64,000 bases of DNA from Planctomycetes bacterium MalM25 (lineage in GTDB: Bacteria; Planctomycetota; Planctomycetia; Pirellulales; Lacipirellulaceae): NCBI GenBank assembly GCA_007745835.1, contig CP036424.1:2069001-2133000 (forward strand). The letters are read 5' to 3'. Below, in pieces: positions 3 through 26,988 of this stretch; within the stretch, counting starts at the first letter, position 1, and each line of letters opens with the position of its first letter. The notes beneath the pieces were generated by a model, which was not told the DNA's origin, did no database searches, and saw only the letters and a program-made list of their open reading frames with translations. The position numbers were made by a program, and so were the translations under genes.

Positions 3-1043
3 TTCCGCTATGGCGCCAAGCTCGATCTGTTCACCGAAGTTAACACCGAAAAGATGGGGCTGTGGAAAGGTGGCAGTTTTTTCCTACACGGCGTCAGTTG
101 GAATTTCGGTCAAAACTCGAATGCCGATGCGACATTCCTGGCTCCTGTCAACGCCAGTCTGACCTACCCGGAGGCCGAACCATCATTTGGGGTCAGTTCC
201 TTTTGGTTTCAACAAGAGTTGGGCGACCAAGGCTACGCCGCGTTGGTCGGCAGGTATGATCTGCTCGACGTGTGGGGGTTGTTTTATCCAGACTACGGCA
301 AGGGTGTCGACGGATTCATGAATGTCTCGTCATTCGTTCCTTTCAATGTCGTTCTCACAGGCCTGCCACCGGTTTCCAACTTGGCAGGCATCGTCAAGGC
401 GGGTGAGCAGGGTGTGGAGGGGGCGTTTCTCGTGTTGGAGAATGCAAACAGTCCCACCACCCTTGGATTGGAATTCCCCAACGGGGTAACTCTTTTATCG
501 GCTCTTCGGAAGTACACGAAATTAGGTGGGCTTCGAGGTACGCACACCTTGGCCGCCTGGTATGCTACCGGTGATTTTACTTCATTCGACACCAACAGTT
601 GGGTCGATTTCCCACCTGGACTCAACGCGACACCAACACGTAGCGGAAGTTGGTCGGCGATGTACATCGGTGAACAACGACTGTGGCAAGATCCCTGCAA
701 TGAAAAAAGGTATACAAACCTGTTGGGGTACCTTGACTTTGCCGACAGTGACACCAACCCGTTCCAAGTGACCGCAGGTGGTTCGATTGAGTCGTTTGGG
801 TTCTTCTTGAGTCGACCAGGCGACCGTATGGGAATCGCTGGCTTTTACAACGGGCTGGGTGAGTTTTCCAATCTACTCAGCGTACTTGAACCGGCTGGCG
901 ACGTGTACGGTTGTGAAATCTATTATAACGCTGAAGTAAATCCCTGGTTTCATGTCACATTTGATCTGCAAGCTGTGAATCCGTCATTGAATTCTCGTGA
1001 TACAGCGATCGTGGCGGGCTTGCGAGCCAAGTTAGATTTCTGA
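3..1043 (+). CDS. OprB-like carbohydrate porin, 5' truncated
   Basis: The reading frame is open from the first bases of the window and runs in frame through the first ATG at 54, so the gene starts upstream and only about 346 C-terminal residues are present. The protein is rich in alternating aromatic/polar segments and ends in LRAKLDF, a terminal Phe typical of outer-membrane beta-barrels. Segments such as RYGAKLDLFTEVNTEK, GRYDLLDVWG and IAGFYNGLG resemble carbohydrate-selective OprB porins, which let sugars diffuse across the outer membrane. Family call is from recognition, not a search. An inverted repeat (TAGATTT/AAATCTA, 1033-1053) overlaps the stop codon and could act as a weak terminator. 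Confidence 0.75.
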   Translation, partial: FRYGAKLDLFTEVNTEKMGLWKGGSFFLHGVSWNFGQNSNADATFLAPVNASLTYPEAEPSFGVSSFWFQQELGDQGYAALVGRYDLLDVWGLFYPDYGKGVDGFMNVSSFVPFNVVLTGLPPVSNLAGIVKAGEQGVEGAFLVLENANSPTTLGLEFPNGVTLLSALRKYTKLGGLRGTHTLAAWYATGDFTSFDTNSWVDFPPGLNATPTRSGSWSAMYIGEQRLWQDPCNEKRYTNLLGYLDFADSDTNPFQVTAGGSIESFGFFLSRPGDRMGIAGFYNGLGEFSNLLSVLEPAGDVYGCEIYYNAEVNPWFHVTFDLQAVNPSLNSRDTAIVAGLRAKLDF

Positions 1044-1490: not shown

Positions 1491-1773
1491 GTTCAACAAG
1501 GTTGTCACTTGATATCGACCGACACTCGTCGGGCGATATCGCTCTTGAAGCTGTGATCGAAGCTGCCCGATTGTCACGAGTCATGCACGGTTCATCAATG
1601 GCGCATGGCTTAAATGCGTGAAGGCACGCAACGACTCGATGGCCAGTTGTCTCGTCAGCTCGTCAGGCCGCTTTGCGTTCGTAGTGCTTCAAGACACCGC
1701 CGAGCCACTGCCGACAGACGATCTCTTCATCCTCACTTGGCGGATCATCGACCTCGGGCCAGACGCCGAGCAG
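1491..1773. repeat. IS end, copy B of the ~285-bp direct repeat
   Basis: Second copy of the repeat described at 1083-1370. Here it is continuous with the transposase reading frame that runs on to 2731, so it marks the downstream terminal region of that insertion sequence. The repeat begins with GTTCAACAAGGTTGTCAC at 1491. Exact terminal inverted repeats could not be fixed by eye. Confidence 0.7.
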
Positions 1774-2731
1774 AGGCTTGTTCTCCTTCCTCTGGTGAGG
1801 GCGACATGCGTGATAATAATCGCAGTAGGAAGAGACGATATGGTCGAGGTGTGCCAAGCCGAAGACGATGAATCGGTTAAGGCACTCACCCCGAATCGAT
1901 CCGATCCAGCGTTCCACGAACGCGTTCTGATTCAGCGCTCGCGGAGCCGTTGGCTCGACGGAGACACCCGCGTCGGCGAAGACCTTGTCGAAGCGTTTGG
2001 AGTACTTGAAGTCGAGGTCTCGCAGGAGGTAGCGAACCGGCAGGTACATCCCGCGAGCTTGCTGCAGCATGGACTCGGCGTGAGCGGTCACCCAATCGTC
2101 GTCGGCCTTGAGCGTCGCCGGCGAGCAGATGACCCGCTGCGAGTTTACGTGCAGGAATGCCAGCACGTAGGCCTGCCGCAGACCGGTGCTCGTCATGACC
2201 ATCTTGCTGAAAAAAATCGCACTGCCAAAGGGTGTCGGCGTGGATCTTGATGAACTCGTCCCAGGTTCCGGGACCCCGCTTGGGCCCCGGATGAATGCCT
2301 TCCTCTTTGAGGATCGTGCGAACTGTCGTGCGGCCAACGCAGCGGATCCGCAGCTTACGCAGCTCGCCGACGATTCGGGCGTATCCCCACTGGTTCTGCT
2401 TGGCGAGTCGAACCACGATCTGGCGGATCGTCTCGGAGGTTCCTTTGCGGCCCATCTTCTTGGCAGGCGGCTTGCCCTGGCTTCTCCGCTCCAGCCAACG
2501 GCGGTAGGTTCGTGGGTGCACGATGGAGACCAACTTCAAGGCGTCCGAACCCATGCCGTCGCCCAGCTCTAGCAGCCGCTGCCGCTCTTCATCCTTGAGG
2601 AAGATGCGACTCTGCGGGACGCGAGCCCGAGTCAGCTCCAGCTCGGCCTTCAAGAAGAGGATGTGTTGGCGGAGTTGCTCCTCACTTGAGCGGGCGAAGA
2701 GGAAGAAGAGTGGCGAGAACCAGGGCGGCAT
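1663..2731 (-). pseudogene. IS transposase (rve/DDE integrase core), frameshifted
   Basis: Two overlapping minus-strand frames together make one full transposase. The upstream part (start ATG at 2731, sequence [18 protein letters not shown]...) contains the helix-turn-helix region and the first catalytic Asp in WQCDFF. The downstream part has the second Asp in [11 protein letters not shown] and the Glu in [16 protein letters not shown]. The frames meet at a run of seven T (minus strand) at about 2210-2216; reading six T would give [13 protein letters not shown] and restore one ORF. IS3/IS481-type transposases catalyse DDE transposition. The break is more consistent with an inactivating +1 indel than with the -1 programmed frameshift of IS3 elements. 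The related IS at 18836-19915 is encoded in one intact frame. Confidence 0.8.
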
Positions 2732-2831
2732 CGGGATGACATCCTCTCGAATCTCAGGCGTTTTCGGGGTGACAACCTTTCTGAACCCCTGCTGTCGTCC
2801 CGATTCTCTTCGATCGATCTCAGCCGGCAAG

Positions 2832-2993: not shown

Positions 2994-4220
2994 GTGCCCA
3001 AACTTCTCAACCGCCCGCCCAAGTACCGCCTCCACAAGAGCACCGGCCAAGCCGTCGTCTCGATTCACGGCAAGGTCATCCAGCTCGGCCCGTTCGGCTC
3101 CCAAAAGAGCCACGCGCGGTACCAAGAGGAGATCGCCAACTGGCGAGCCGCCCGTCAGAAGCAAGAGATTGAAGAAGCGGCTGCTCCCGAGATCTTGCTC
3201 CACGACCTGCAGGCCCGTCGCCAGCGTGATTACCCCGTTTCGATCGACGAGCTGGCCCTAGCCTATCTCGACTTCGCCCGCGGCTACTACCGCAAGAACG
3301 GCCGCGTGACCCGCGAAGCCGAGATCATCGGCGACATGCTCCGCGTCTTGGTCCGCCACCACAGCGGCCAGTCGGCCGACGAGTTCGGGCCGGTGAAGCT
3401 CAAGGAGCTCCGCGAGCGGATGATCGACGAGGCCGACTGGTGCCGCAAGCACATCAACCGCCAGGTCTCGCGGCTGACGCGGATGTTCAAGTGGGCGGTC
3501 GCCAACGAGCTGATCGGGCCAGCGGTCTACCAAGCGCTGACGACGGTCGGTGGTCTCAAACGGGGCCGGACCGAAGCACGCGAGACCGGCCCGGTGACGC
3601 CGGTCGAGGACGCGATTGTCGAGAAGACGCTGCCGTTCTTGCCGCGGATCGTCGCCGACATGGTGCGGTTGCAGCGGCTCACCGGCTGCCGGCCCGGAGA
3701 GGTTTGCACGCTTCGTCCAGGCGACCTCGACCAATCCGAGGAAGTCTGGGTGTACGAGCCGGGCGAGCACAAGATGGAGCACCACGGCACGAGCCGGCTG
3801 ATCATGCTGGGCCCCAAAGCACAGAAGCTGCTCGCTCTCTACCTCGACCGTCACCCCCTATCGCCCTGCTTCTTGGGGGATGAGACCGTCTGGCTCTCTC
3901 GGCGTCGCGGCGAAGAGGCCAGCATGCCTCTCAACGCTGATCTGATGAAGCGGGCCCACCGCTTCGCCATCGGTCGCGGAACTCTGGACCCGTACAACGT
4001 CAACGCTTACCGAATCGCCATCCACCGGGCGTGTGAGAAAGCGGGCCACGCGAAGTGGTCGCCTAACCAGCTGCGGCACACGGCGGCGACGGAGGTCCGC
4101 AAGCAATTCGGCCTCGAAGCGGCCCAGGTCGTATGCGGGCACCAATCGGCCGACGTGACCCAGATCTACGCCGAGCGCGACGTGAGCCTCGCAAAGGAAG
4201 TCGCCCGGAAGGTCGGCTGA
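2994..4220 (+). CDS. Tyrosine-type site-specific recombinase (integrase)
   Basis: A 408-residue protein starting at GTG. The N-terminal 60 residues (KYRLHKSTGQAVVSIHGK...) resemble an AP2-like arm-binding region; residues about 110-180 a core-binding SAM-like domain; the C-terminal half is the catalytic domain. Visible active-site elements are the first Arg in TGCRPGEV, the second Arg in NQLRHTAATEV, GHQSADVT and the Tyr in QIYAERD. The HxxR box has Asn in place of the usual first His (PNQLRHT). Such enzymes integrate and excise genomic islands and phages. The neighbouring 21-bp repeat (2964-2984, 20016-20036) makes it the likely integrase of the 17-kb island. No clear ribosome-binding site precedes the GTG, so the start is uncertain. 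Confidence 0.88.
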   Translation: MPKLLNRPPKYRLHKSTGQAVVSIHGKVIQLGPFGSQKSHARYQEEIANWRAARQKQEIEEAAAPEILLHDLQARRQRDYPVSIDELALAYLDFARGYYRKNGRVTREAEIIGDMLRVLVRHHSGQSADEFGPVKLKELRERMIDEADWCRKHINRQVSRLTRMFKWAVANELIGPAVYQALTTVGGLKRGRTEARETGPVTPVEDAIVEKTLPFLPRIVADMVRLQRLTGCRPGEVCTLRPGDLDQSEEVWVYEPGEHKMEHHGTSRLIMLGPKAQKLLALYLDRHPLSPCFLGDETVWLSRRRGEEASMPLNADLMKRAHRFAIGRGTLDPYNVNAYRIAIHRACEKAGHAKWSPNQLRHTAATEVRKQFGLEAAQVVCGHQSADVTQIYAERDVSLAKEVARKVG

Positions 4221-4882: not shown

Positions 4883-5995
4883 CTACTTGCCGACTACCTC
4901 GGTATCGCTGTGCGACGTAGCCGGGTCGCGACCCGGCGACTGGTCCAGGGCCTCCGCGAGTCGGCGAGCGGCGATGGCGCCCACTTCGTAGTTGTTGGTG
5001 GCCACGTAGCTCACTTTGGCGGACTCCCCATCATAGAGGGCCTCGTCGTTCAGGCCGCTGTCGAAGACAACTGTCGGAATTCCCTTGGCTTTCGCTTTGA
5101 TCACAAGCGGTACGAGCTTCTCTGAGTCGATCGGGGAGATGCAGATCCCGCTTACACGCTCGGCGATCAGTCGGCGAAACAGCTCGATTTGGCCCGCGAG
5201 GTCTTGTTCAAGCGTGGGCGCCTCGAAACGGATCGCTACGTCGCCGGCGTCCCGAGCGGCTTTCTCGGCGCCTGCGCGGACCGATTGCCAGAATTCGTGC
5301 GTCAGTCCCTTGGTCACGACGGCGATCGTGAATTTCGGATCGGTTGGCTCGACGGTCTCGCCGCCGAATCGATCTGGGTAGAGCAGCGGGCGGATTCTAT
5401 CGCTTTCCATGTTGTCGGAGGTTGCGAGATGCTGCCCAGTTTGCACGCGAGGAGTGACCTCCTCGCCCCGAAGGTGAGCGAGCATCGTCTCAACCGTCTC
5501 GCGACCCATCTTCACCGGGTCTTGAAGCACAATCCCCGCCATTTTCCCATCCTTCAGGGCAGCGATCATAGCGGCGTTGGCGTCACAACTGACGAAAGGG
5601 ATTTTCCCAGCACGATCGGTCTCTACGAGGACCTGCAGCATCCCATCGCCGTTGGGTTCACAGACGCAGAAGATTCCTCTCACGGAGTCGCCGAAGGTCT
5701 CGAAGAGCTGCCGTGCTCGACGTACGGACGTCTCACGGGTAGTGCCAAGGTATTGAACCGACGCGAGGACGTTGATATGCGGAAACTCATTCTGCATCGT
5801 CTGCAAGAAGCCTTGCTCGCGTTGTTCGGTGCTCTGGCTGAATTGGTTGTAGCGGCAGAGCAGTACGCCAGGTTCCGTTGGCGGCTCAGTCTCGGGCCGC
5901 GAGAGAATCGCATAGGTCGCTCCGGCAGCGACGATCGCAACTAGCGAGGCGACCACTGCGATACGTCCCGGACGAGCACGCTGAGACCGAAGCAT
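4883..5995 (-). CDS. Lobe-swapped sugar-binding protein (RbsB-like, permuted)
   Basis: A 370-residue protein with an N-terminal membrane/signal segment (about residues 12-31). The type I periplasmic binding fold is recognisable but in reversed order. Residues about 43-207 match the C-terminal lobe of RbsB-like proteins (STEQREQGFLQTM, VRGIFCVCEPNGDGML, GKMAGIVLQDPVKMG, then the usual end region ATSDNM). After a linker (about 209-221), residues 222-350 match the N-terminal lobe (FTIAVVTKGLTHEFW, GICISPIDSEKL, IPTVVFDSGLN, YVATNNYEVG). This is the pattern of a circular permutation. It is the last gene of the minus-strand arm of the fructan locus and has no permease or ATPase beside it, so it could serve sensing rather than transport. 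Alternatively it is a relic of a rearranged tandem duplicate. Confidence 0.72.
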   Translation of the reverse strand: MLRSQRARPGRIAVVASLVAIVAAGATYAILSRPETEPPTEPGVLLCRYNQFSQSTEQREQGFLQTMQNEFPHINVLASVQYLGTTRETSVRRARQLFETFGDSVRGIFCVCEPNGDGMLQVLVETDRAGKIPFVSCDANAAMIAALKDGKMAGIVLQDPVKMGRETVETMLAHLRGEEVTPRVQTGQHLATSDNMESDRIRPLLYPDRFGGETVEPTDPKFTIAVVTKGLTHEFWQSVRAGAEKAARDAGDVAIRFEAPTLEQDLAGQIELFRRLIAERVSGICISPIDSEKLVPLVIKAKAKGIPTVVFDSGLNDEALYDGESAKVSYVATNNYEVGAIAARRLAEALDQSPGRDPATSHSDTEVVGK

Positions 5996-10754: not shown

Positions 10755-10790
10755 AAATTATCGTCGGGCCTGATAGATTGGCTTTTGCAG

Positions 10791-10804
10791 CGACATCGAT
10801 GTCG
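10791..10804. promoter_or_regulatory. Perfect 14-bp palindrome, candidate operator
   Basis: CGACATCGATGTCG is a perfect palindrome with a central CG, 43 bp upstream of the likely GTG start (10847) of the GntR/LacI-type regulator. CG-centred palindromes are typical LacI-family operators and palindromes also serve GntR proteins, so autoregulation or control of the divergent fructan arms is a reasonable inference. Confidence 0.45.
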
Positions 10805-10846
10805 GCAGAAGGACCCCTGTCCGTCAGAACGCATAAGGAATGGCTT

Positions 10847-11959
10847 GTGAGCGTAAACAACACCAAGCAGCGGCACGTCTACGAGACCGTCCGTCGCCGT
10901 ATCGAGGCGGGCGACTTCCAACCCGGGGACCGCATCCCTTCGGACTCGGAGTTGGTCCGAGAGTTTGGGGTCAGCCGGCCGACAGTCGCCAAGGCTTTAC
11001 GCGAACTCGAACGCGCCGGCATGGTGCGACGGAAGACCGGTTCGGGGACCTACGTCCTGGATGTGGCCGGCGCCGAAGGGCAGCAATTCGGCTTGCTCAT
11101 CCCGGGGCTGGGTGAAACCGAGATCTTCGAACCGATTTGCGCGTCCATGGCGAGGGTCGCCCAGCTGATGGGCCACGGACTGGTGTGGGGCGCCAACGCC
11201 ACACACGCTCCCTCCTTCGAGAAGGGGCGGCAAGCGATCGCCCTCTGCGAGCGCTACTTGCAAGATGGCGTCGGCGGCATTTTCTTCGCCCCGTTAGAAC
11301 ACGTCGATGACAAGGACCAAGTCAACGCCCGAATCATCTCGCTCTGCGAGTCGGCCGATGTCCCGGTGGTGCTGCTCGACCGCGACTTGGTGCCCTACCC
11401 AGAACGTAGCGACCACGACTTGGTGGGCATCGACAACCGCCGGGTCGGATACGCCGTGACGCACCACCTTTTCCAGCAGGGATGCGAGCGCGTGATGTTC
11501 TTTGCCCGCCCCGGCTCAGCCGCGACGATCGACGCCCGCATCGCTGGCTTTATGGAAGCGGTCGTCAAGGACGCCGGCTCGTTCGATGCCAAGCTCGTCC
11601 AGCGGTGCGACCCGAAGGACCGTGAAGCGATCGGCGCGTTCTTCGCATCGCAACGCCCCGACGGCATCGTCTGTGGCAACGACGTCACCGCGGGCCACTT
11701 GATGCACACGCTCGACCAGATGGGCCTTGATGTGCCGGACGACGTGCTCGTCGCTGGGATCGACGACGTGAAGTACGCCGAGTTGCTACGTGTTCCCCTG
11801 ACGACGGTGAGGCAACCGTGCGAGGCGCTTGGCGAGGCGGCTTTCAGGACGATGATCGACCGGATCGATGTCCCCAACGCCCCGGCGCGAGACGTGTTGC
11901 TTGGTTGTGAGCTGATCGAGCGTGAATCCACGAAGCGAATCAAGGAAACGGCCCGGTGA
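10847..11959 (+). CDS. GntR-type DNA-binding regulator with LacI-like sugar sensor
   Basis: A 370-residue regulator. Residues about 5-75 form a GntR winged helix (YETVRRRIEAGDFQPGDRIPSDSELVREFGVSRPTVAKAL, shown here only as the family hallmark region), and residues about 80-360 a type I periplasmic-binding-like sensor (VPVVLLDRDLVPYP, DLVGIDNRRVGYAV, DGIVCGNDVTAG, VAGIDDVKYAELL). This AraR-like architecture binds a sugar and releases DNA. I prefer the GTG at 10847, which has AAGGAA six bases upstream; the frame is open further to a TTG at 10778, but that would place the 14-bp palindrome inside the gene. Its stop overlaps the fructokinase start (GTGA), so the two are translationally coupled. 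It is the evident local regulator of the fructan locus. Confidence 0.88.
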   Translation: MSVNNTKQRHVYETVRRRIEAGDFQPGDRIPSDSELVREFGVSRPTVAKALRELERAGMVRRKTGSGTYVLDVAGAEGQQFGLLIPGLGETEIFEPICASMARVAQLMGHGLVWGANATHAPSFEKGRQAIALCERYLQDGVGGIFFAPLEHVDDKDQVNARIISLCESADVPVVLLDRDLVPYPERSDHDLVGIDNRRVGYAVTHHLFQQGCERVMFFARPGSAATIDARIAGFMEAVVKDAGSFDAKLVQRCDPKDREAIGAFFASQRPDGIVCGNDVTAGHLMHTLDQMGLDVPDDVLVAGIDDVKYAELLRVPLTTVRQPCEALGEAAFRTMIDRIDVPNAPARDVLLGCELIERESTKRIKETAR

Positions 11960-12930
11960 GCTTGTTCAACAACCATCAGACGGCGTGCCGGCCCCTCGTC
12001 GTTGGCCTCGGCGAAGCCTTGTTCGACTGTTTTCCCGACCGGGTTGTCCTGGGCGGGGCGCCGATGAACGTGACCGTCCACGCCGATGCGATCCTAGGCC
12101 CGCTCGGTGGGGCAGGCGTACCGGTCACGCGAGTCGGAGGCGACGAACTTGGCGAGCGGTTTGTCTCGGAGGCAAGGCAGCGTGGGTTATCGACCCAATA
12201 CGTCCAGACCGACGAATCGCGACCGACTGGCCGCGTCGTGGTCACGTTGGACGATGGAGGCCACGCCTCCTACCGATTCGATACCGAGAGCGCCTGGGAT
12301 GCCCTGGAGTACGACGCGAGCCTTGCGACGCTCGCCGGGCGATGTGATGGCGTCGCTTTTGGAACACTGGCCCAGCGCAACACAGCGAGCAGAGAAGCCA
12401 TCACCGACTTCGTCGCTAATGCGACGCAGGCCGTCCGGCTCTTCGACGTGAACTTGCGCCAGCAGTACTACTCTGCCGATCTGCTTGATGCGTCGCTGCA
12501 GCTTGCTTCCGCGGCGAAGTTGAACGAAGAGGAACTCCGCGAGGTCTGCGAGCTGCTTGAGCTTCGTGATGCCGGCAGCGGCGACATCGACCAAGCCGCC
12601 ACGCTCTTGTCGGCAGCCTACCGACTGGACTGGCTCGCCATCACACGCGGAGCCGAGGGCACTGCCCTGTACGCCGACGGAGTCAAGCACACCGGGGCGC
12701 CGGCGTCTTTCTCGTGCGAGCCGAACGCTGACACCGTCGGTGCGGGCGACGCTTGCTGCGCCGGGCTGCTATGCGGGACGCTGCTTGGATACACGAGGCA
12801 AGCGACCCTCGGGTTGGCGAATCGCCTTGGCGCTTACGTCGCCACTCGACCCGGCGCGACGCCTGAGCTACCGCGTAGCTTGTTGGCGATGGCTCCATCA
12901 GAGTCCACGGCGGCGACCGACCAAGCGTAA
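11956..12930 (+). CDS. PfkB-family carbohydrate kinase, probable fructokinase
   Basis: A 324-residue kinase of the ribokinase/PfkB family, starting at GTG inside the stop of the regulator gene. Visible signatures are the N-terminal GLGEALFD and LGGAPMNVTVHA sugar-binding region, the central FDVNLRQQYY, and near the C-terminus DTVGAGDACCAGLL with the catalytic Asp of GAGD. GLGEALFD..P..LGGAP is characteristic of fructokinases, which phosphorylate free fructose to fructose 6-phosphate in the cytoplasm. This fits the two GH32 fructanases and sugar porter downstream. A 49-bp gap separates it from the next gene. Confidence 0.85.
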   Translation: MSLFNNHQTACRPLVVGLGEALFDCFPDRVVLGGAPMNVTVHADAILGPLGGAGVPVTRVGGDELGERFVSEARQRGLSTQYVQTDESRPTGRVVVTLDDGGHASYRFDTESAWDALEYDASLATLAGRCDGVAFGTLAQRNTASREAITDFVANATQAVRLFDVNLRQQYYSADLLDASLQLASAAKLNEEELREVCELLELRDAGSGDIDQAATLLSAAYRLDWLAITRGAEGTALYADGVKHTGAPASFSCEPNADTVGAGDACCAGLLCGTLLGYTRQATLGLANRLGAYVATRPGATPELPRSLLAMAPSESTAATDQA

Positions 12931-12979
12931 GCCCATCGAAGCCTTTTCTACCAGCCTTATCAGAAAGTTCCGGCACGGC

Positions 12980-14542
12980 ATGATACGCCTCTTGCTCTCT
13001 CTCACGATACTCGCGTGCTTAGCGAACGAAGCCGCTGCACGTGGACCGTTCGCAGCTGGCGAGATCGAGGCGGCTCGTATCGAGTTAGCACGCTATCGGG
13101 AGTCGGCAAGATACCTACGTGAGCCGCTACGGCCGCAGTTCCACTTCACGCCCGAGCGGAACTGGATGAACGACCCGAACGGGCTCGTCTTCCACCGGGG
13201 AGAGTACCACCTCTTCTACCAGCACAACCCGGTCGGGAACGCCTGGGGGCATATGAGCTGGGGCCACGCCGTTAGCCCTGATCTCGTGCGTTGGGAGCAC
13301 CTGCCAATCGCCATCCTGGAAGAGCAGGACGAGATGATCTTCTCAGGCAGCTGCGTGATCGACCACAACAACACATCCGGGTTCGGCACGGCTGACAACC
13401 CGCCAATGGTTGCGATCTACACGGCCCATCGGTCCGGCAATCAAGCTCAGTCGCTGGCGTACTCCACCGACAACGGCCGCACTTGGACGAAGCACGCGGG
13501 CAATCCGGTGCTCGACCTCGGTGAGGCCGACTTCCGCGACCCGAAGGTGTTCTGGCACGAACCTACGGAGCGATGGGTGATGGTCGTCTCGCTGGCGATC
13601 GCCAAGCGGTTGCAGATCTACGGTTCAGACGACCTCAAGCAGTGGACTCTCCTCAGCGAGTTCGGCCCCGCCGGCGTCGATCCGAAGCCCAACTGGGAGT
13701 GTCCCGATCTGTTCGAGCTGACGATCGAAGACGCTGCTGGCAAACCGACGGGCGAAACCCGTTGGGTGCTCGAAGTCGACATGGGCGACGGGGCGATCGC
13801 AGGCGGCTCGGGCGGCGAGTACTTCGTCGGTTCATTTGATGGCGAGCGGTTCGTCTGCGACGATCCAAACAACGCTGCCCATTGGGTCGATTTCGGCCGC
13901 GACTTCTACGCCCCGGTGAGCTGGTCCGATGTACCTAGCGAAGACGGTCGAAGAATTTGGATCGGCTGGATGAACAACTGGCAAACGCACCTGCTCCCCA
14001 CTTCGCCGTGGCGTAGCGCGATGTCGGTTCCGCGCTCGCTCGCACTCCGAAAGACGTCCGACGGGCTGCAGCTTGTCCAGAAGCCCGTGGAAGAGCTGAA
14101 AACTCTTCGACGCGATCAAACGAACCTACTGGAAGACGACTTCGTCGGACGCCAGCTCGAACTCGAACTCGTCGCCCAGCCGGTCGACGATCAACCGATC
14201 CGCCTAAGCGTCCTCAAGGGCGAGGAAGAGGCAACCGTCATCGGCTATGATCCGAGGGCTCAGCAGCTCTACGTCGATCGCACCCACTCCGGTCAAGTCG
14301 ATTTCCACGAAGCTTTCGCCGGCGTGCATCGGGCCCCGCTCAAGCTCAACGGCAAACCGCTGCGGCTCCGGGTGCTTGTCGATCGCTCGTCCGTCGAGGT
14401 GTTCGCTCAGGACGGGCTGGTGGTCATCACCGATCGGGTCTTCCCCGCCGAGTCGAGCGTCGGCATCACGCTGGACGCTCCTGGCGCCGACGTGAAGAGC
14501 TTCCAAGGTTGGCGAATGGCCTCCTCGTGGCGTGACGACTGA
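12980..14542 (+). CDS. GH32 fructan/sucrose hydrolase, secreted
   Basis: A 520-residue protein with a signal peptide (residues 1-20, ending ANEAAA). The GH32 five-bladed propeller holds the nucleophile Asp65 in WMNDPNG, the transition-state stabiliser in RDPKVFWHEP (about 188) and the acid/base Glu in ECPDLFEL (about 246); the C-terminal beta-sandwich includes DRSSVEVFAQDG. Such enzymes release fructose from levan, inulin or sucrose in the periplasm or outside. The open frame extends upstream to 12557 through the fructokinase gene, but the ATG at 12980 is followed by a proper signal peptide. It belongs to the regulator-kinase-GH32-MFS-GH32 run. Exact linkage specificity cannot be read from the sequence. 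Confidence 0.9.
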   Translation: MIRLLLSLTILACLANEAAARGPFAAGEIEAARIELARYRESARYLREPLRPQFHFTPERNWMNDPNGLVFHRGEYHLFYQHNPVGNAWGHMSWGHAVSPDLVRWEHLPIAILEEQDEMIFSGSCVIDHNNTSGFGTADNPPMVAIYTAHRSGNQAQSLAYSTDNGRTWTKHAGNPVLDLGEADFRDPKVFWHEPTERWVMVVSLAIAKRLQIYGSDDLKQWTLLSEFGPAGVDPKPNWECPDLFELTIEDAAGKPTGETRWVLEVDMGDGAIAGGSGGEYFVGSFDGERFVCDDPNNAAHWVDFGRDFYAPVSWSDVPSEDGRRIWIGWMNNWQTHLLPTSPWRSAMSVPRSLALRKTSDGLQLVQKPVEELKTLRRDQTNLLEDDFVGRQLELELVAQPVDDQPIRLSVLKGEEEATVIGYDPRAQQLYVDRTHSGQVDFHEAFAGVHRAPLKLNGKPLRLRVLVDRSSVEVFAQDGLVVITDRVFPAESSVGITLDAPGADVKSFQGWRMASSWRDD

Positions 14543-14604
14543 TCGAACGCGAACCTCGGCTCTTACTCATCTATTCATCCCCTTCGCACTCCGCGAACGT
14601 TCGC

Positions 14605-15936
14605 ATGCTATTGAATCGGACTCTGCTCACCAGCGCCGTGATTGCTGCCCTTGGGGGCTTCCTCTTCGGCTTCGACACGGTCGTGATCTCGGGCGCCGAG
14701 CAGACGATCGAATCGATCTGGAGCCTGGGCTCGGGGATGCATGGCCTCGCGATGAGCGCCGCTCTCTGGGGTACGGTACTCGGCTCGCTCACCGGTGGTT
14801 ACCCAACCGACCGGTTCGGCCGCAAGCGAACGCTACTCTCAATCGGCCTACTCTACTTCGTATCGGCGGTTTGGTCGGGCCTCGCGGGCGACGTCTACTC
14901 TTTCATGATTGCGAGATTCCTTGGCGGGATAGGCGTTGGGGTTTCAACGGTCGCCGCGCCGCTCTACATCGCCGAGATCTCGCCGCCCGCCCTCCGTGGC
15001 CGGCTAACCGGGATGTTTCAGTTCAACATCGTCTTCGGCATTCTGATCGCTTTCCTGTCGAACTACCTGCTAAGCGGTATTGGCGAGGACGCGTGGCGAT
15101 GGATGCTCGGGGTCGAGGCCTTCCCGGCGTTGATCTACACGCTCGCCTGCTTCGCGATCCCCGAGAGCCCACGATGGCTGCTAGCCGTGAAGGGGGACCG
15201 CCCGCAAGCCGCCGCCGTCTTGCAACGCATCGGCCTGGCGGATGACGAACAAGACGCCGCCACGCAGCTCGATGAGATCGCCGCCGCGGCCAAAGCCGAA
15301 CCGGCGACGCACAGCCTCTGGACGGCCGGACTCGGCAAGCCGATCCTGCTCGCCTTCCTGGTCGCGTTCTTTAACCAGCTGTCGGGCATCAACGCGATCC
15401 TCTACTTCGCTCCGCGGATTTTTGAGCAGGCCGGCCTCGGTACTCAAGCCGCCTTCCTGCAGTCGATCGGGATCGGGATCACGAATTTGGTGTTCACGTT
15501 CGTCGGCCTCTGGCTCATTGATCGGCTGGGCAGGCGGACGCTGCTGTACATCGGGTCGCTTGGCTACATTGCGTCGCTCGGGCTGTGCTCTTGGGCGTTC
15601 GCGTCGGAGAACTTCAAGATCGTACCGGCGTGCATCTTCGCCTTCATCGCGGCTCACGCCGTCGGTCAAGGCGCGGTGATCTGGGTGTTCATTTCGGAGA
15701 TCTTCCCCAACCGCCACCGCGCGGCGGGCACATCGCTTGGGTCGGCGACGCACTGGGTCTTCGCCGCGCTGCTAACGCTCTTTTTTCCGACGATGGTCGA
15801 GTGGTTCGCCCCTTCGATGGTGTTCGCGTTCTTCGCGGGGATGATGGTCCTGCAGCTGCTCTGGGTCTGGCGGATGGTCCCCGAGACGAAAGGCGTGCCA
15901 TTGGAAGAGCTGCAGCGCAAACTGGGAGTAGCATGA
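14605..15936 (+). CDS. MFS sugar porter
   Basis: A 443-residue integral membrane protein with twelve predicted hydrophobic segments. Sugar-porter signatures are visible: GGFLFGFDTVVISGA in TM1, DRFGRKRTLL between TM2 and TM3, RFLGGIGVGVST in TM4, PESPRWLL before the central loop, FFNQLSGINAILYF in TM7 and PETKGVPLEEL after TM12. These are proton-coupled uptake transporters for hexoses or disaccharides in the inner membrane. In this context it most likely imports fructose released by the two GH32 enzymes. Its TGA stop overlaps the ATG of the next gene (ATGA at 15933-15936), indicating translational coupling. Confidence 0.9.
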   Translation: MLLNRTLLTSAVIAALGGFLFGFDTVVISGAEQTIESIWSLGSGMHGLAMSAALWGTVLGSLTGGYPTDRFGRKRTLLSIGLLYFVSAVWSGLAGDVYSFMIARFLGGIGVGVSTVAAPLYIAEISPPALRGRLTGMFQFNIVFGILIAFLSNYLLSGIGEDAWRWMLGVEAFPALIYTLACFAIPESPRWLLAVKGDRPQAAAVLQRIGLADDEQDAATQLDEIAAAAKAEPATHSLWTAGLGKPILLAFLVAFFNQLSGINAILYFAPRIFEQAGLGTQAAFLQSIGIGITNLVFTFVGLWLIDRLGRRTLLYIGSLGYIASLGLCSWAFASENFKIVPACIFAFIAAHAVGQGAVIWVFISEIFPNRHRAAGTSLGSATHWVFAALLTLFFPTMVEWFAPSMVFAFFAGMMVLQLLWVWRMVPETKGVPLEELQRKLGVA

Positions 15937-18835: not shown

Positions 18836-19915
18836 ATGAAGACTCAGCTGCAACCTTGGCACATCGCTTTCGCGTGGGCGGTCGGCTTCGTGAACCGGCA
18901 GCAGCAGCTGGTGATCGAGTACCTGTGCGCTGAGAACCGAGTCCTGCGTGAGCAGGTTGGTAGGAAGCGGATCCTGCTGAGCGACGACCAGCGAAGGAGG
19001 CTGGCGGTGAAGGGCAAGGAGCTGGGCCGTAAGGGCCTGGAGTCGATCGAGACGCTGTTCACGCCCGATACGATTCTTCGTTGGCATCGGAAGCTGGTCG
19101 CTCAGAAATGGGATTACTCGAAGCGTCGGAAGCAAGTCGGGCGACCGTCGGTATCGGAAGAGGTGACGAAGCTGATCGTCCGCTTCGCGAAGGAGAACCG
19201 GTCGTGGGGCTACGGGCGGATTCAGGGAGCGTTGGCGAATCTGGGTCACGAAGTCTCGGAGTCCACGGTCGCGAACGTCCTGAAAGCCAACGGCTTAGAA
19301 CCGGCTCCGATACGCAGGAAACAGACGCCCTGGAAGGAGTTTCTGAAGGCGCATTGGGACCAGCTCTCGGCGGTCGATTTCACGAGCGTCGAAGTCTGGA
19401 CGCCGCGAGGCCTGATCACGTACTACCTGTTGTTCGTGATCCAGCCGAAGAGCCGAAAGGTCCACTATGCCGGGATGACAACTTCGCCGAACGATGCGTT
19501 TATGCAGCAGATCGCGAGAAACTTAATCGACGACGAGGACGGCTTCCTCAAGGACTCGAGGTTGCTCCTGATGGACCGAGACACCAAGTTCTCGGCAGCA
19601 TTTCGACACACGCTGAGCTTGGGGGGAGTGCATGCGTTGCGGCTGCCGCCGAAGACGCCCAACCTGAACGCCTACGTCGAGCGGTTCATGCGTAGCATCA
19701 AGGAAGAGTGCCTCAATCGGATGATCTTCTTCGGCGAGAAGACCGTCGAGAACGCGGTGAAGGAGTACCTGACGCACTACCACACCGAACGCAACCATCA
19801 AGGCATCGACAACCGACTCATTGAGCCAAAGGAGGAATCGCCGCCCGATGGGATCATCTCATGCCGCGAGCGGCTTGGCGGGATGCTCAAGCACTACCAC
19901 CGAATGGCCGCATGA
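18836..19915 (+). mobile_element. Intact IS transposase (rve/DDE integrase core)
   Basis: A 359-residue transposase in a single frame. It has an N-terminal helical region with heptad-like ENRVLREQVG, a helix-turn-helix part (VTKLIVRFAKENRSWGYGRIQGAL region) and the DDE core: Asp in LSAVDFTSVEV, Asp in LLMDRDTKFSAAF, Glu in NAYVERFMRSIKEECL. It ends GGMLKHYHRMAA, like the GGVLKHYERKAA of the broken IS at 1663-2731, so the two belong to one family but are diverged. It sits between the fructan operon and the right 21-bp repeat. The flanks 18636-18835 and 19916-20015 contain no gene; terminal inverted repeats were not identifiable by eye. Confidence 0.88.
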
Positions 19916-20043: not shown

Positions 20044-20328
20044 ATGAAGAAGCGTGGGCAGCACTCACCATCTGGACGCATCTATCAGGTAGCGAAAGGG
20101 GTGGGGAGGTTTGCTGCAGCACGCCTTGCTAGCTCCCTGCTCGTGGAGACCAAGCAGAAGGGAGAGAAGCAAGGGGTATCCGCCTTGCTTGACTGGGGCA
20201 GCTTCAGTGAAGACAGCTATCTAGATGAGATAGTGATCGATTACCAAGTTGGGGAGATTGAGAGTGTAAAGAGTGGCACCTCACTTAGCACGGTCAGCCT
20301 TTGGGCAAGACTTTTTGCACTGCTATGA
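20044..20328 (+). pseudogene. Fragment of a GHKL-type ATPase
   Basis: A 94-residue frame starting 7 bp after the right att-like repeat. KGVGRFAAARLASSLLVETKQ resembles the ATP-lid region (K-G-x-G-R-F/L-A-x-x-R-L-G) of Hsp90/gyrase-type (GHKL) ATPases, and LLDWGSFSEDSYLDEIVIDYQV followed by SGTS resembles what comes next in the predicted ATP-binding proteins of that group. The N-terminal ATP-binding half and everything after the GTS are missing; the end is antisense to the permease gene (20294-20328). I read it as a gene remnant cut by integration or deletion. A short real gene is possible but less likely. Confidence 0.55.
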
Positions 20329-21244
20329 ACGCCAGGAGAAGACCGCCGATGCTGATGGTGACCAGGGAGCTTGGCAGATTTGAGAAGTAGGTGATTTGGT
20401 AGATCGTGCTGTAGATGAGTACGCCGAGCACGGTGCCCGTCAACGAGCCGGCGCCGCCAGTCAAGAGTGTCCCGCCGATCACGACCACCGCGATGACATC
20501 GAGTTCCAGACCGTTGGCGTTGGTGGGGTTGCCTGAGTCCATGTAGAGCGTCATCGCGAGTCCGCCCAACGCCGAGCAGAAGCCGCTTAGGGCGTAAACG
20601 CCGATCCGAGTTCTTGCGACGGGCAGGCCGATCAAGAGCGCCGATTCCTCGCTGCCGCCCAGCGCGTACAGATTGCGACCAAACCGAGTCAGGTTGGCGA
20701 TCGTGAGAGTCACGACGAACATGCTCAAGAAGATTAGCGCGCCGAAGCTCAATTCTGCGCCGCCACCGATCGGGAGTGTTAGGTCCCCTAGTGTGTCGTA
20801 GAAGGGGTGCTCGATCTGGATGGATTCACGCTTCACGACAAACGCCATGCCGCGTGCGAAGAATAGCCCACCTAGGGTGATCAGGAACGCGGGCAACTTG
20901 AACGCATGGATCACCCCCCCCATCAAGGCGCCGTAGCCGGTACCGATTGTCAGGGCGATTACCCACACGAGGATCGGGGGCATGCCGTAGTCAGTGATCA
21001 GAGCCGCAGTGAAGATCGTTGTGAAGCCGATGACCGATCCGACAGAGAGGTCGATTCCACCGGAGAGGATGACCAGCGTCATGCCGAGGGCCGCGATCCC
21101 CAGAAAGGCGTTTTCGGAGACGAGGTCTGCGATCACGTAGCGGGAGCAGAACCCCTCCAGGCTAAGCGAGGCCGTTGTGAACAGAGCGACCAGGACCCCC
21201 GCGGTGGCCAGGATCGACGAATGCTTCCGCAGCCAACGTTTCAT
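20294..21244 (-). CDS. yjfF: Sugar ABC transporter permease (YjfF-like)
   Basis: A 316-residue permease of the BPD_transp_2 (ribose/galactose type) family with about nine membrane segments. The conserved stretch LGIAALGMTLVILSGGIDLSVGSVIGF and VVIGGTLLTGGAGSL are typical. It is the last gene of a four-gene operon and its start overlaps the stop of the preceding permease gene (ATGA at 21241-21244). Order binding protein-ATPase-permease-permease matches ytfQ-ytfR-ytfT-yjfF, a galactofuranose transporter in E. coli; the substrate here is not established. Its 3' end overlaps the antisense GHKL fragment. Confidence 0.85.
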   Translation of the reverse strand: MKRWLRKHSSILATAGVLVALFTTASLSLEGFCSRYVIADLVSENAFLGIAALGMTLVILSGGIDLSVGSVIGFTTIFTAALITDYGMPPILVWVIALTIGTGYGALMGGVIHAFKLPAFLITLGGLFFARGMAFVVKRESIQIEHPFYDTLGDLTLPIGGGAELSFGALIFLSMFVVTLTIANLTRFGRNLYALGGSEESALLIGLPVARTRIGVYALSGFCSALGGLAMTLYMDSGNPTNANGLELDVIAVVVIGGTLLTGGAGSLTGTVLGVLIYSTIYQITYFSNLPSSLVTISIGGLLLAFIAVQKVLPKG

Positions 21245-22257
21245 TCGACGCCTCCCCTGAACCTCTTCCGGAAGGCGTCCGATTGCAGCAGGCAGACCCC
21301 CAAGATCACAAGCGACTTCGGGACCGGAGCGGTGTCGGGGGCGACGCCGAAGGTGTACATCGTGGTCAGCAGGGTTTGTAGGAGCAGCGCGCCGAGCACC
21401 GATCCCGCTAGGGAGAATCGCCCCCCGGTCAAAGCCGTCCCGCCGACGACCACGGCGAAAATGGCGTCTAGCTCAGTGTACAACCCCGCATTCACCGTGT
21501 CGGCGGCTTTGATGTTTGAGGTGTCAATCAAGCCGGCCACCGCGGCACAGAAGCCCGAGAAAGCGTACACCGCCACTCGGATCACGGTGGTGTTGACGCC
21601 GGCGCACCGGCTAGCGAGTTCGTTAGCACCAACGGACTCAACAAGTAGACCCAGGACGGTCCGACGCGTAGCAACGGCGGTCACGACAAACAGACTCAGC
21701 GTTATGGTGATGGGCGTGGGGAGGCCTAAGAAATGACCATTCGCTAAGTAGTCGAACCAGGCGCCGGCGCCCTGGTCCGCAAGCGAGATCACTTTCTCGC
21801 CGGTGATGTACCGGGCGATGCCGCGGCCGCACACCATCAGGATCAGTGTCGCAATGATCGGCTGGATTCGTAGAAGCGACACCAGCGCCCCATTCGCCAC
21901 GCCGGCGAGCACGCCGGAGCCTAGCGCCAGGGCCAAAGCGACCATGAGGCCTGCTTCCGACTCGGTGAGTGCCAGCGCGGCCACGGCGCCGGAGATCGCC
22001 ATGATTGAGCCGACCGATAGATCGACGCCGCCGGTGGCGACGACGAGCGTCATCCCCAAGGCGACGATCGCCCCGATGGACCCACGGTTGAGTACGTCGA
22101 CCAAGCTTCCGTAGAGACGTCCGTCCCGGACCTCTAGGGAGTAGAAGCTAGGCACGAAGACCGCGTTAAAGAGCAGGATCAGTGCGAGTCCCGCCAGGGG
22201 CCAAGTCAAGCGGCACTGGGCGATTCTTGTCAGCATACTAAGGGGTTCACGTGTCAT
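21241..22257 (-). CDS. ytfT: Sugar ABC transporter permease (YtfT-like)
   Basis: About 338 residues, with TM segments and the permease signature IGAIVALGMTLVVATGGVDLSVGSIMAISG and VVVGGTALTGGRFSLAGSV. It pairs with the YjfF-like permease to form the membrane channel of a ribose-type ABC importer. Two starts are possible: ATG 22269 (overlap 23 bp with the ATPase gene) and ATG 22257 (overlap 11 bp, MTREPLSMLTRIAQ); I give the shorter overlap. Either way the gene is tightly coupled to the ATPase gene upstream. Confidence 0.84.
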   Translation of the reverse strand: MTREPLSMLTRIAQCRLTWPLAGLALILLFNAVFVPSFYSLEVRDGRLYGSLVDVLNRGSIGAIVALGMTLVVATGGVDLSVGSIMAISGAVAALALTESEAGLMVALALALGSGVLAGVANGALVSLLRIQPIIATLILMVCGRGIARYITGEKVISLADQGAGAWFDYLANGHFLGLPTPITITLSLFVVTAVATRRTVLGLLVESVGANELASRCAGVNTTVIRVAVYAFSGFCAAVAGLIDTSNIKAADTVNAGLYTELDAIFAVVVGGTALTGGRFSLAGSVLGALLLQTLLTTMYTFGVAPDTAPVPKSLVILGVCLLQSDAFRKRFRGGVE

Positions 22258-23779
22258 GGCTGCCGGCAATAAGGTCCATGATTGCTGTCTCTTGGACCCC
22301 GTCGTCCTCGAGCTCGCCGATCACCTGTCGGTCACGGAGAACCGCGACTCGCTCGCACGTACGAACAACCTCTTCAAGCTCGGATGAGATGAAGAGGATC
22401 GCCATGCCTTCCTCACGAAGAGAAGCCACCAAGGACTCGATCTCCGCTTTCGCGCCGACGTCGATGCCGCGAGTCGGTTCGTCGAGGATGATCAGCTTGG
22501 GCTGCATCGCCAGCCAACGAGCCAGCAGAACTTTCTGTTGATTGCCCCCAGAGAGGTTTCCCACGGGGGTCTCAGGGCTTGGGGTCTTGATGCGGAGTTT
22601 GCTGATGTAGTGATTGGCGATCTCGGACTGCTTTCCACGGGGCAACGCCCTTGCGAGCCCTCGGTGAGCCTGCATGGCGAGCAGGATGTTCTCACGCACC
22701 GAGAGGTCAAGCAGAACACCTTCCCGCTTGCGGTCCTCTGGGCAGAAGGCGAGACCCGCGCGAATGGCGCGGGCGGGCGTGGGGCTGGTGAGCCGCTCAC
22801 CGCTCACGTGGAGCTCGCCGTGGTTGGCGTGGTCGAGCCCGAACAGCAGCCGTGCGGCTTCGGTCCTCCCCGACCCGAGCAAGCCGGCGAAGCCGAGCAC
22901 TTCCCCTTTGCCAATCCTTAAATCGTAAGGTTTAATCTGTCCGTCACGCCCAAGGTGCTTCGCTTCGAGGACCCATTCGTTGTCGCTCGATTCATCCTGC
23001 ATGGCGGTGCGGCTGGGGGGGGCGATTGCCGATGCCTCGGGCTGTCTGCCGAGCATCTTGGCGATTAGCTCTCTTCGAGGTAGGTCTTGGGTCGATTGCG
23101 TTTCAACGTGCCGGCCATTCCTAAGCACTGTGATCCGGTCTGCGATCGCGTACACCTGGTCTAGGAAGTGGGTGACGAAGACCATCCCCAAGCCCTGGTT
23201 CTTGAGGCCGCGCATGACTCGCAGCAGTTCCTCGACTTCGTTTTCATCAAGGCTCGACGTCGGCTCGTCCAGAACGAGCACCTTCGCCTTCATGTCGAGG
23301 GCGCGCGCTATGGCGACCATCTGCTGAATGGCGGTTGAGTAGGAGCCCAGCTCTCGATGGAGGTCGATTCGCAGGTCGATGCGGCCGATCGCCTTTTTCG
23401 CGCTTGCGTAGAGGGACTTCCACGAGAGCAAGCCCATGCGGGTCGCCTGGCGCCCGAGCATGATGTTCTCGGCGACGGATAGCTGAGGGATGAGGGGCAC
23501 CTCTTGGAAGACGGTGCTGATCCCGGCGGCCTGCGCGTCGAGTGGGCTGTGTGGAGAGATGGGGTCGCCCTCCATCAAGATGCGACCTTGGTCGGCGCGG
23601 TGCACGCCGGTTAGCACCTTGATGAGCGTCGACTTGCCAGCGCCGTTCTCGCCCATCAGCGCATGGACTTCTCCTGAGCGCAGCTCGAAGTCAACGCGAT
23701 CGAGCGCTTTGACTCCCGGGAATGTCTTAGAGACCCCTTCCATGCGGAGGAGGGAGCCGGTTCCATCGAGCGACGGCAT
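22247..23779 (-). CDS. ytfR: Sugar ABC transporter ATPase (YtfR-like), two NBDs
   Basis: A 510-residue protein with two fused nucleotide-binding domains, as in RbsA/MglA/YtfR. NBD1 has Walker A GENGAGKST (about 42) and VLVLDEPTSSLD; NBD2 has the degenerate Walker A GLLGSGRTE normal for this family, signature LSGGNQQKV and Walker B LIILDEPTRGID. It energises import through the two downstream permeases. The gene lies 14 bp downstream of the binding-protein gene, in one operon. Confidence 0.92.
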   Translation of the reverse strand: MPSLDGTGSLLRMEGVSKTFPGVKALDRVDFELRSGEVHALMGENGAGKSTLIKVLTGVHRADQGRILMEGDPISPHSPLDAQAAGISTVFQEVPLIPQLSVAENIMLGRQATRMGLLSWKSLYASAKKAIGRIDLRIDLHRELGSYSTAIQQMVAIARALDMKAKVLVLDEPTSSLDENEVEELLRVMRGLKNQGLGMVFVTHFLDQVYAIADRITVLRNGRHVETQSTQDLPRRELIAKMLGRQPEASAIAPPSRTAMQDESSDNEWVLEAKHLGRDGQIKPYDLRIGKGEVLGFAGLLGSGRTEAARLLFGLDHANHGELHVSGERLTSPTPARAIRAGLAFCPEDRKREGVLLDLSVRENILLAMQAHRGLARALPRGKQSEIANHYISKLRIKTPSPETPVGNLSGGNQQKVLLARWLAMQPKLIILDEPTRGIDVGAKAEIESLVASLREEGMAILFISSELEEVVRTCERVAVLRDRQVIGELEDDGVQETAIMDLIAGSHDT

Positions 23780-23793
23780 CGCGGTTTTGCCAA

Positions 23794-24762
23794 TCAGTAC
23801 TTGCGTGAGCCGATAAGCCCTTCGGCGTCGTCCATCTCGAACACGGCGTCTTCGATCAGCGTCTTCTTTTCGAGCTGCTCTCCGTCACCGGACAGGATCT
23901 TCTCGACCGCGTCCATGGCAAGAGGTCCCTGCAACGGATTGCACTCGACGGTGCAGTTGAGCTTGCCCGCCACCATCGCCTCGAACGCGGCGCGGATCGC
24001 ATCGACGGAAACAATGACGATGTCTTCCGCGGGCCGGAGGCCGGCGTCCTCGATCGCCTGGATGGCGCCGATCGCCATGTCGTCGTTGTGAGCGTAGACC
24101 GCTTGGATCTCTTCGCCGTGCTTCTTGAGCAGCGCCTCCATGACCTCCTTGCCCTTGGATCGCCGGAACTCGCCGGTCTGAGTCGAGATGATCTCGATGC
24201 CCGGGTGATCCTTGATCACGTCGCGGAAGCCGTTGAAGCGATTGATCGTGGGGGAGGCGCCGGGGTTGCCCTGCAGCTCTACAACTTTGGCCTCGCCATC
24301 CATCTTCTTGACCAGCCATTCGGCCGCCTTGCGCCCTTCGGTGTAGGTGTCGGCCCCGATGTACGTCTCGTACAGGGACTCGTCGCTCGTGTCGATCTGC
24401 CGGTCGAGGATGACGACAGGGATGTTGCGCTTCTGGGCTTTCTCTAAGACGTTGTCCCAGCCGGTCTCGACAATGGGGGCGAGCACCAGCACATCGACGC
24501 CCTGGTTGATGAACGAGCTCATCGCCTTGATCTGGTTCTCTTGCTTCGACTGGCCTTCGGCGAACCTGAGGTCGTAGCCCTTTTCGGCGGCGGCTTCCTT
24601 GACGGAGACGGTGTGCGCGTTGCGCCAGTCGTTGTCGGCTCCTGTTTGAACAAAGGCGACAACGGGCTTCTTGGTGGTCGGTCCGTCGGATGACTTGGTG
24701 CATCCGCCCGACAACAAGATGAGGACGCCAAAGAGGAGTACGAGATTCTTGCCGATAGCCAT
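23794..24762 (-). CDS. ytfQ: Sugar-binding lipoprotein of ABC importer (YtfQ-like)
   Basis: A 322-residue type I periplasmic-binding protein in the normal lobe order. The signal peptide ends in a lipobox-like LLSGGC (Cys about residue 21), so it is probably a lipoprotein. N-lobe: VVAFVQTGADNDWRNAH, VLVLAPIVETGWDN, IPVVILDRQID, YIGADTYTEGRKAA; C-lobe: VVELQGNPGASPTINRFNGF, VYAHNDDMAIGA, CTVECNPLQG. FVQTGADNDWR and LAPIVETGWD match YtfQ-type galactofuranose binders, but the substrate here is inferred. It is the first gene of the ytfQRT-yjfF operon and serves as a normal-order contrast to the swapped protein at 4883-5995. Confidence 0.88.
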   Translation of the reverse strand: MAIGKNLVLLFGVLILLSGGCTKSSDGPTTKKPVVAFVQTGADNDWRNAHTVSVKEAAAEKGYDLRFAEGQSKQENQIKAMSSFINQGVDVLVLAPIVETGWDNVLEKAQKRNIPVVILDRQIDTSDESLYETYIGADTYTEGRKAAEWLVKKMDGEAKVVELQGNPGASPTINRFNGFRDVIKDHPGIEIISTQTGEFRRSKGKEVMEALLKKHGEEIQAVYAHNDDMAIGAIQAIEDAGLRPAEDIVIVSVDAIRAAFEAMVAGKLNCTVECNPLQGPLAMDAVEKILSGDGEQLEKKTLIEDAVFEMDDAEGLIGSRKY

Positions 24763-26951: not shown

Positions 26952-26988
26952 CGCTTCAAGCCGTAGGCTTTGCCAGTTCGAAGGAAGG

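Follow-up and report, generated by a model that had tools for sequence, protein, structure and literature searches.

A sugar-binding protein of type I whose chain is circularly permuted in nature has been described, TpMglB-2 (Tp0684), for which the designation "Type Ic / Cluster Bc" was proposed in the part of the report that was accessible to us (PMC4990184). According to the same part of that report, TpMglB-2 is a lipoprotein whose gene is clustered with ABC transporter genes, and the protein is a glucose-binding monomer that changes shape. In TpMglB-2, the C-terminus has received only the first three strands of the N-lobe, and the chain starts and ends within that lobe (PMC4990184, accessible part). 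In our literature search, whose coverage was partial, the accessible part of PMC4990184 was the only text recognised as describing a natural permuted binding protein, and it is not claimed that others are absent from print.

In the window (the whole stretch of DNA that was analysed, 64,000 nucleotides), a binding protein with a different rearrangement, P0001, is encoded; its parts and surroundings are listed in Table 1. The Pfam profile PF13407 (Peripla_BP_4) matched the whole of P0001 with an E-value of 1.6e-52 (179.1 bits, cut-off 35.1) in two stretches, the better of which placed residues 224–353 on positions 1–121 of the 258 profile positions, i.e., on the N part of the profile. PF13377 (Peripla_BP_3) matched residues 50–185. 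When P0001 was aligned with the solved protein 4rxt, residues 49–207 corresponded to chain positions 140–296 (i-E 3.4e-17) and residues 222–357 to chain positions 5–131 (i-E 1.7e-11); the lobes map in swapped order on 4wut and 3ksm likewise. Pfam, the PDB alignments, and segment HMMs agree that the C-lobe (residues 42–212) precedes the N-lobe (residues 219–353), as the original prediction had proposed. The N-before-C order of the CUT2 / Peripla_BP_4 family is not found in P0001, which is a variant and not an ordinary member of the family because its lobe order is swapped. The other binding protein of the window, which adjoins the window's own CUT2 permeases and ATPase, has the N-first order that had been ascribed to it, with residues 35–292 on positions 1–256 of PF13407.

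Table 1. Features of the window described in the text (positions are those of the window)
Feature	Position	Strand	Basis or remark
Phage-type integrase, downstream of P0001, on the side where most relatives carry the ATPase	2994..4220	+	Context
Circularly permuted CUT2-type sugar-binding protein P0001, order C1a-C1b-C2-N	4883..5995	-	Pfam, PDB matches, segment HMMs; ORF 5995..4883, 370 aa, ATG to TAG
N-lobe, residues 219-353, ending at the old lobe crossing, followed by a 17-residue tail	4937..5341	-	
Joint, residues 213-218, old C-terminus to old N-terminus	5342..5359	-	
C2, residues 127-212, latter half of the C-lobe, to the old C-terminus	5360..5617	-	
C1b, residues 73-126, completing the C-lobe's first half	5618..5779	-	
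C1a, residues 42-72, opening strand and helix of the C-lobe, located at the old lobe crossing; includes STEQREQGF	5780..5872	-	
Hydrophobic N-terminal segment of P0001, residues 11-32, signal peptide or anchor	5900..5965	-	Without cysteine
The window's own CUT2 transporter: SBP 24762-23794 (N-first), ATPase 23779-22247, two permeases	20294..24762	-	

The AlphaFold2 model of P0001, built from 12 swapped proteins, had a pLDDT of 82.6 and a pTM of 0.78; only low pLDDT was assigned to a helix at residues 11–24, within the hydrophobic N-terminal segment. Binding proteins of type I fill the list of structural matches of the model together with LacI-type relatives, and the best match was PDB entry 5er3 (Z 21.5, 267 aligned residues, rmsd 4.5). 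According to the model, P0001 has the two-lobed type I fold, and the pTM value indicates a confident overall arrangement predicted for one chain. The model and the homologues with the same order, described below, both uphold the earlier interpretation as a circular permutation.

Relatives of P0001 were sought in several sets of genomes. In 97 related genomes (own genome included), seven others gave one colinear match running from the C-lobe into the N-lobe with 44–54% identity, of which that of G020 stops at residue 260; in most of the remaining genomes with matches, the alignment fell into two separate ones, arranged N-first. Reading of the ORFs at the first 43 loci revealed the C-then-N order in L001–L008, the N-then-C order in 32 loci, and the N-lobe alone in three cut loci. 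Among 396 genomes of the taxonomic order, 14 passed the threshold of E ≤ 1e-50: 13 swapped (the own genome and the broken G020 included) and one N-first (G099). A family search added six further swapped genomes. In total, the window-type swap was found in 19 genomes, i.e., that of the window and 18 others from the same taxonomic order, with one copy broken (G020) and one cut by a contig end (G077). Segment HMMs recovered the full C1a-C1b-C2-N arrangement in 17 of them, including the window's genome. G077 shows just C1b-C2-N because the start of its gene lies beyond the contig end, and the order in G020 was derived from BLAST pieces instead of segment HMMs. Within family f15 (149 genomes), the type is present in at least 11 genomes, each of the 11 verified by its segments, and both G000 (the genome of the window) and G1025 carry the swapped order within single-contig genomes. 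Homologues with the swapped order were thus found in 18 other genomes, with no sign of a tail-to-tail remnant; together with the PDB and Pfam E-values, this excludes chance. The named relatives found belong to Planctomycetota and Acidobacteriota. P0001 is the sole match in its own genome at E ≤ 0.001, and no match to it was detected in the genus-mates G001–G003 in the searches of 97 and 396 genomes.

The joint between the old termini is 6–8 residues long in 15 of the 16 distinct window-type proteins, the 16th (L140) being a split HMM hit. Among the 16 distinct swapped proteins whose start could be read, a simple pattern found a lipobox-like cysteine in 12, and reading found one in two more (L004, L044); P0001 and L140 have none, and the N-terminal segment of P0001 shows the change C26A in comparison with ten other full-length swapped proteins. 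The copy of G020 (L007 / L055), which is the best match to P0001 by identity (54%), is truncated and contains an in-frame stop; it also has no lipobox cysteine, and no transporter match adjoins it. Sixteen loci with weak N-lobe-only matches (L107–L122) were considered as a further permutation type and rejected, the C2 match (E 0.03 or better) following the N-lobe in ordinary order in 14 and the C2 matches of L107 and L120 being too weak to reveal the order.

The neighbourhoods of the relatives were analysed using the ATPase of the swapped locus L050 and the permease of the swapped locus L063 as queries. A CUT2 ATPase adjoins the swapped gene in 14 of the 19 genomes (9 neighbourhoods and 5 more), with 57–67% identity to the L050 query in the other 13 neighbourhoods, and therefore the swapped lineage looks like a transporter component. 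A permease match is present in 11 of these 14 loci; in L052 the contig ends, and no permease match is listed at L054 and L141. The swapped gene has no adjoining ATPase in the genome of the window, G020, G362, G077, and G1030; in the last of these, an ATPase with 44% identity is encoded on the opposite strand at a distance of about 2 kb. The original prediction that neither permease nor ATPase stands beside the gene is correct for P0001 itself, next to which no CUT2 ATPase or permease was found, but it does not extend to most of the relatives. At E ≤ 1e-150, the ATPase was detected in 78 of 296 genomes of the taxonomic order and in none of G000, G001–G003, and G020. In the best-scoring 30 of the 78 matching genomes, each locus taken with 1.5 kb flanks, the SBP was N-first in 16, swapped in five, and not on the locus in eight, and one locus (G077) was at a contig start. 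The N-first order is thus common beside the cassette ATPase, and the swap probably arose in this setting. In three genomes (L057, L058, L059), N-first SBPs of the P0001 family have no adjoining ATPase and adjoin a gene reading like ispG and a low-complexity protein. The swapped SBP of G362 (L060) is located near the same LOR/SDH-like gene as these three loci.

A second natural order, C2-N-C1, with the cut in the middle of the C-lobe, was found in another family of the class (f22; L067, L087–L090, L092–L096): with a threshold of E ≤ 1e-85, it occurs in 10 genomes out of a sample of 397 from the class. The joint is 12–14 residues long in all ten proteins. A homologous ATPase, 55–62% identical to the query, is encoded directly downstream in seven of the ten genomes; at the remaining loci, an ATPase lies 2–5 kb downstream on the same strand in two, and a permease follows in one. 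The model predicted for this type had a pLDDT of 84.2 and a pTM of 0.79.

A third order, C1b-C2-N-C1a, is present in at least five of the 149 genomes of family f15 (L131–L135), in more distant proteins. In these, the HMMs caught just C2 followed by N; inspection by eye added C1b at the head and, at the tail, the beginning of the C-lobe (such as GGKVMLFVGKMEVLNA). Pfam placed residues 216–356 of L134 on profile positions 10–151. An ATPase match was found at just one of the five loci (L133), with 41% identity. PDB entry 5er3, a solute-binding protein of Rhodopirellula baltica SH 1, is permuted too, judging by its coordinates: residues 40–289 of L094, a C2-N-C1 protein, align with positions 82–330 of its chain, and in the alignments of models, 39..291 of L094 corresponds to 104..357 and 68..357 of P0001 to 49..358. 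By these coordinates its cut, unlike that of P0001, follows the strand-helix unit that opens the C-lobe, giving the order C1b-C2-N-C1a, and it is more distant (21–27% identity). The family of L131–L135, of which 5er3 is an apparent member as judged by the coordinates, is more distant and shows a third permutation that occurs in nature. The title of the 5er3 entry says nothing of chain order.

A phylogenetic tree was constructed for 77 SBPs rearranged to one common order. The C2-N-C1 proteins formed one clade (100/97), and the window type needed four changes (3–4 in bootstraps; starred branches force two). Thirteen window-type proteins, including P0001, formed one starred group (95/99), with the warning from the tree program that long branches, that of P0001 among them, meet in this tree. 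A single clade of all window-type proteins was not rejected (p 0.33). One clade uniting the window type with C2-N-C1 was rejected (p-AU 0.0045), and the joint lengths of the two types, 6–8 versus 12–14 residues, likewise point to separate events. In a quick ATPase tree, C2-N-C1 was again one clade (100) and the window type was scattered, with five changes, one clade of it not being rejected (p 0.329). In separate trees of the N-lobe and C-lobe, quick and weakly resolved, the swapped group needed three and six changes, respectively. A chimera of two paralogues was discarded, since starred branches force just one change per lobe tree and the two trees are in no supported conflict, which does not prove a common history either.

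The simplest route to the swapped order would be tandem gene duplication and fusion, with the first N-lobe and the last C-lobe being trimmed away. Such an origin, a tandem duplicate that lost both ends, had been suggested earlier; the short C-to-N joint is compatible with it, but no fused tandem intermediate was found in 136 ORFs (78 distinct sequences), where the one ORF with a segment matched twice has a single C2 segment split in two.

As for the window copy, its branch in the SBP tree is 1.04 long against a median of 0.15. Of the 89 columns that are invariant in ten other full-length swapped proteins, P0001 keeps 69 and loses 20. The kept columns include R59, D138, Q158, and D312, which we take to correspond to sugar contacts or the pocket lining of RbsB; the lost ones include F137, P139, and Y165, and the changes near the presumed ligand-cleft positions are F137C, P139A, and T231L. 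The comparison of dN/dS was made at dS values that are saturated or near saturation. Given the long branch and the invariant columns lost, P0001 is an orphan that is either repurposed or decaying.

Other features were noted in the window. Two transposases of one kind (rve_3, HTH_32/HTH_21) are encoded at 1663–2830 (minus strand), split over two overlapping ORFs, and at 18836–19915 (plus strand), as one ORF. A fructan-use-like cluster at 10778–18635 (plus strand) opens with a GntR/Peripla_BP_3 regulator; the ORFs that follow read as a fructokinase of the PfkB type, a pair of GH32-like enzymes (WMNDPNG-like motif), and a sugar carrier of the MFS type. At 26052–27924 (minus strand), two adjacent similar ORFs, LuxR-type regulators by eye, apparently represent a tandem duplication.

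Taken as a whole, the data very probably reflect an inherited circular permutation of a CUT2-type (Peripla_BP_4) SBP that would serve as a tethered transporter receptor in most relatives, would be a ligand-binding orphan in the window, and would have originated by tandem duplication. A short linker now connects the former C-terminus with the former N-terminus, and the chain's new termini are where it first crosses between the lobes. Its predicted fold is the usual two-lobed clam, which would close around a small sugar-like ligand, as TpMglB-2 does in spite of its different cut (PMC4990184, accessible part). Most relatives would be lipid-tethered receptors that pass the ligand to the adjoining CUT2 transporter, and since the lipobox-like cysteine precedes the C-lobe, their tether would now sit before this lobe rather than before the N-lobe. 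The window copy, with neither cassette nor lipobox, would most likely be a secreted or membrane-anchored orphan that still binds a small sugar-like ligand.

It is possible, though less likely than not, that the window copy is instead a drifting relic, deprived of its transporter once mobile elements had moved in. An integrase and a transposase do lie downstream, and the best ATPase match in the genome is just 41% identical to the cassette ATPase, with the stricter search empty in this genome, its genus-mates, and G020; the long branch, the 20 lost columns, and the broken state of the best match may indicate decay. Against this, the frame of 370 codons is intact, and the kept columns include the presumed pocket positions. 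G020 also has no lipobox cysteine, so the untethered stage may have lasted.

Supply in trans to another permease, or to the CUT2 permease pair and ATPase at 20294–23779, about 14 kb from P0001, seems rather unlikely. That transporter is of the right type, and at E ≤ 1e-20 its ATPase is the only one in the genome that resembles the cassette ATPase over nearly the full length, the other matches covering about half; however, it has its own adjoining SBP, and its ATPase shares only the above 41% identity with that of the swapped relatives. A role as a membrane-anchored sugar sensor, along the lines of the original prediction, which would suit a gene with no adjoining cassette and a hydrophobic N-terminus free of a lipobox, is also doubtful: no kinase, cyclase, or chemoreceptor was recognised by reading in the neighbouring ORFs, Pfam revealed no signalling domain in P0001, and, judged by reading, the genes upstream encode exported proteins, one of them DUF1559 by Pfam and one with no Pfam match.

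A domain-swapped dimer in place of one closed monomer is very unlikely. Engineered single lobes of ribose-binding protein do dimerise, one of them by segment swapping, as stated in the accessible part of PMC9815098, whereas a confident monomer was modelled here, and TpMglB-2, permuted elsewhere, is monomeric according to the accessible part of PMC4990184. Finally, an assembly error or the remnants of two unrelated tail-to-tail genes, at first sight in keeping with the broken G020 copy and the mobile elements just downstream of the window gene, is exceedingly improbable and, for the swapped family, ruled out by the conserved order, since the same order, open frame, and short joint recur in many genomes, single-contig ones (G000, G1025) included, with a transporter ATPase adjoining in most.

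Beyond the inherited permutation, a broader scenario can be offered tentatively. One Planctomycetota CUT2 cassette may have carried its SBP in three orders (N-C1-C2, C1-C2-N, and C2-N-C1) with independent cuts, and a fourth order may have arisen in the 5er3 family. The recurring driver would be the transfer of the lipid tether from the N-lobe to the C-lobe, altering docking to the permease, and the window protein would have lost the cassette and the lipid anchor and taken a new role.

This family has been cut in several ways, and homologous ATPases stand beside two of the cut forms as well as beside N-first relatives. It provides a natural series for asking how docking and the release of ligand are related to the order of the chain, the tether point, and the mechanics of the hinge. 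Cut points tolerated by evolution may also be useful in biosensor design. In addition, the results contain a warning that domain tools show permuted SBPs as two partial matches.

Natural permuted binding proteins were already known from TpMglB-2, and the cuts at the lobe crossing, in the middle of the C-lobe, and in 5er3 all differ from its cut. P0001 resembles TpMglB-2 in being a circularly permuted type I binding protein (PMC4990184, accessible part), but in P0001 the whole N-lobe segment has moved in one piece, and the ends are at the lobe crossing, near Pfam positions 121/122 of 258. The N-first CUT2 SBPs (4rxt, 4wut, 3ksm, and RbsB, 1dbp) share with P0001 both lobes, the Pfam family, and the transporter type of its relatives, and differ from it in lobe order and anchor point. 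The C2-N-C1 proteins of family f22 belong to the SBP family of P0001, and their ATPase is homologous to that beside its relatives, whereas their cut in the middle of the C-lobe, longer joint, and separate clade set them apart.
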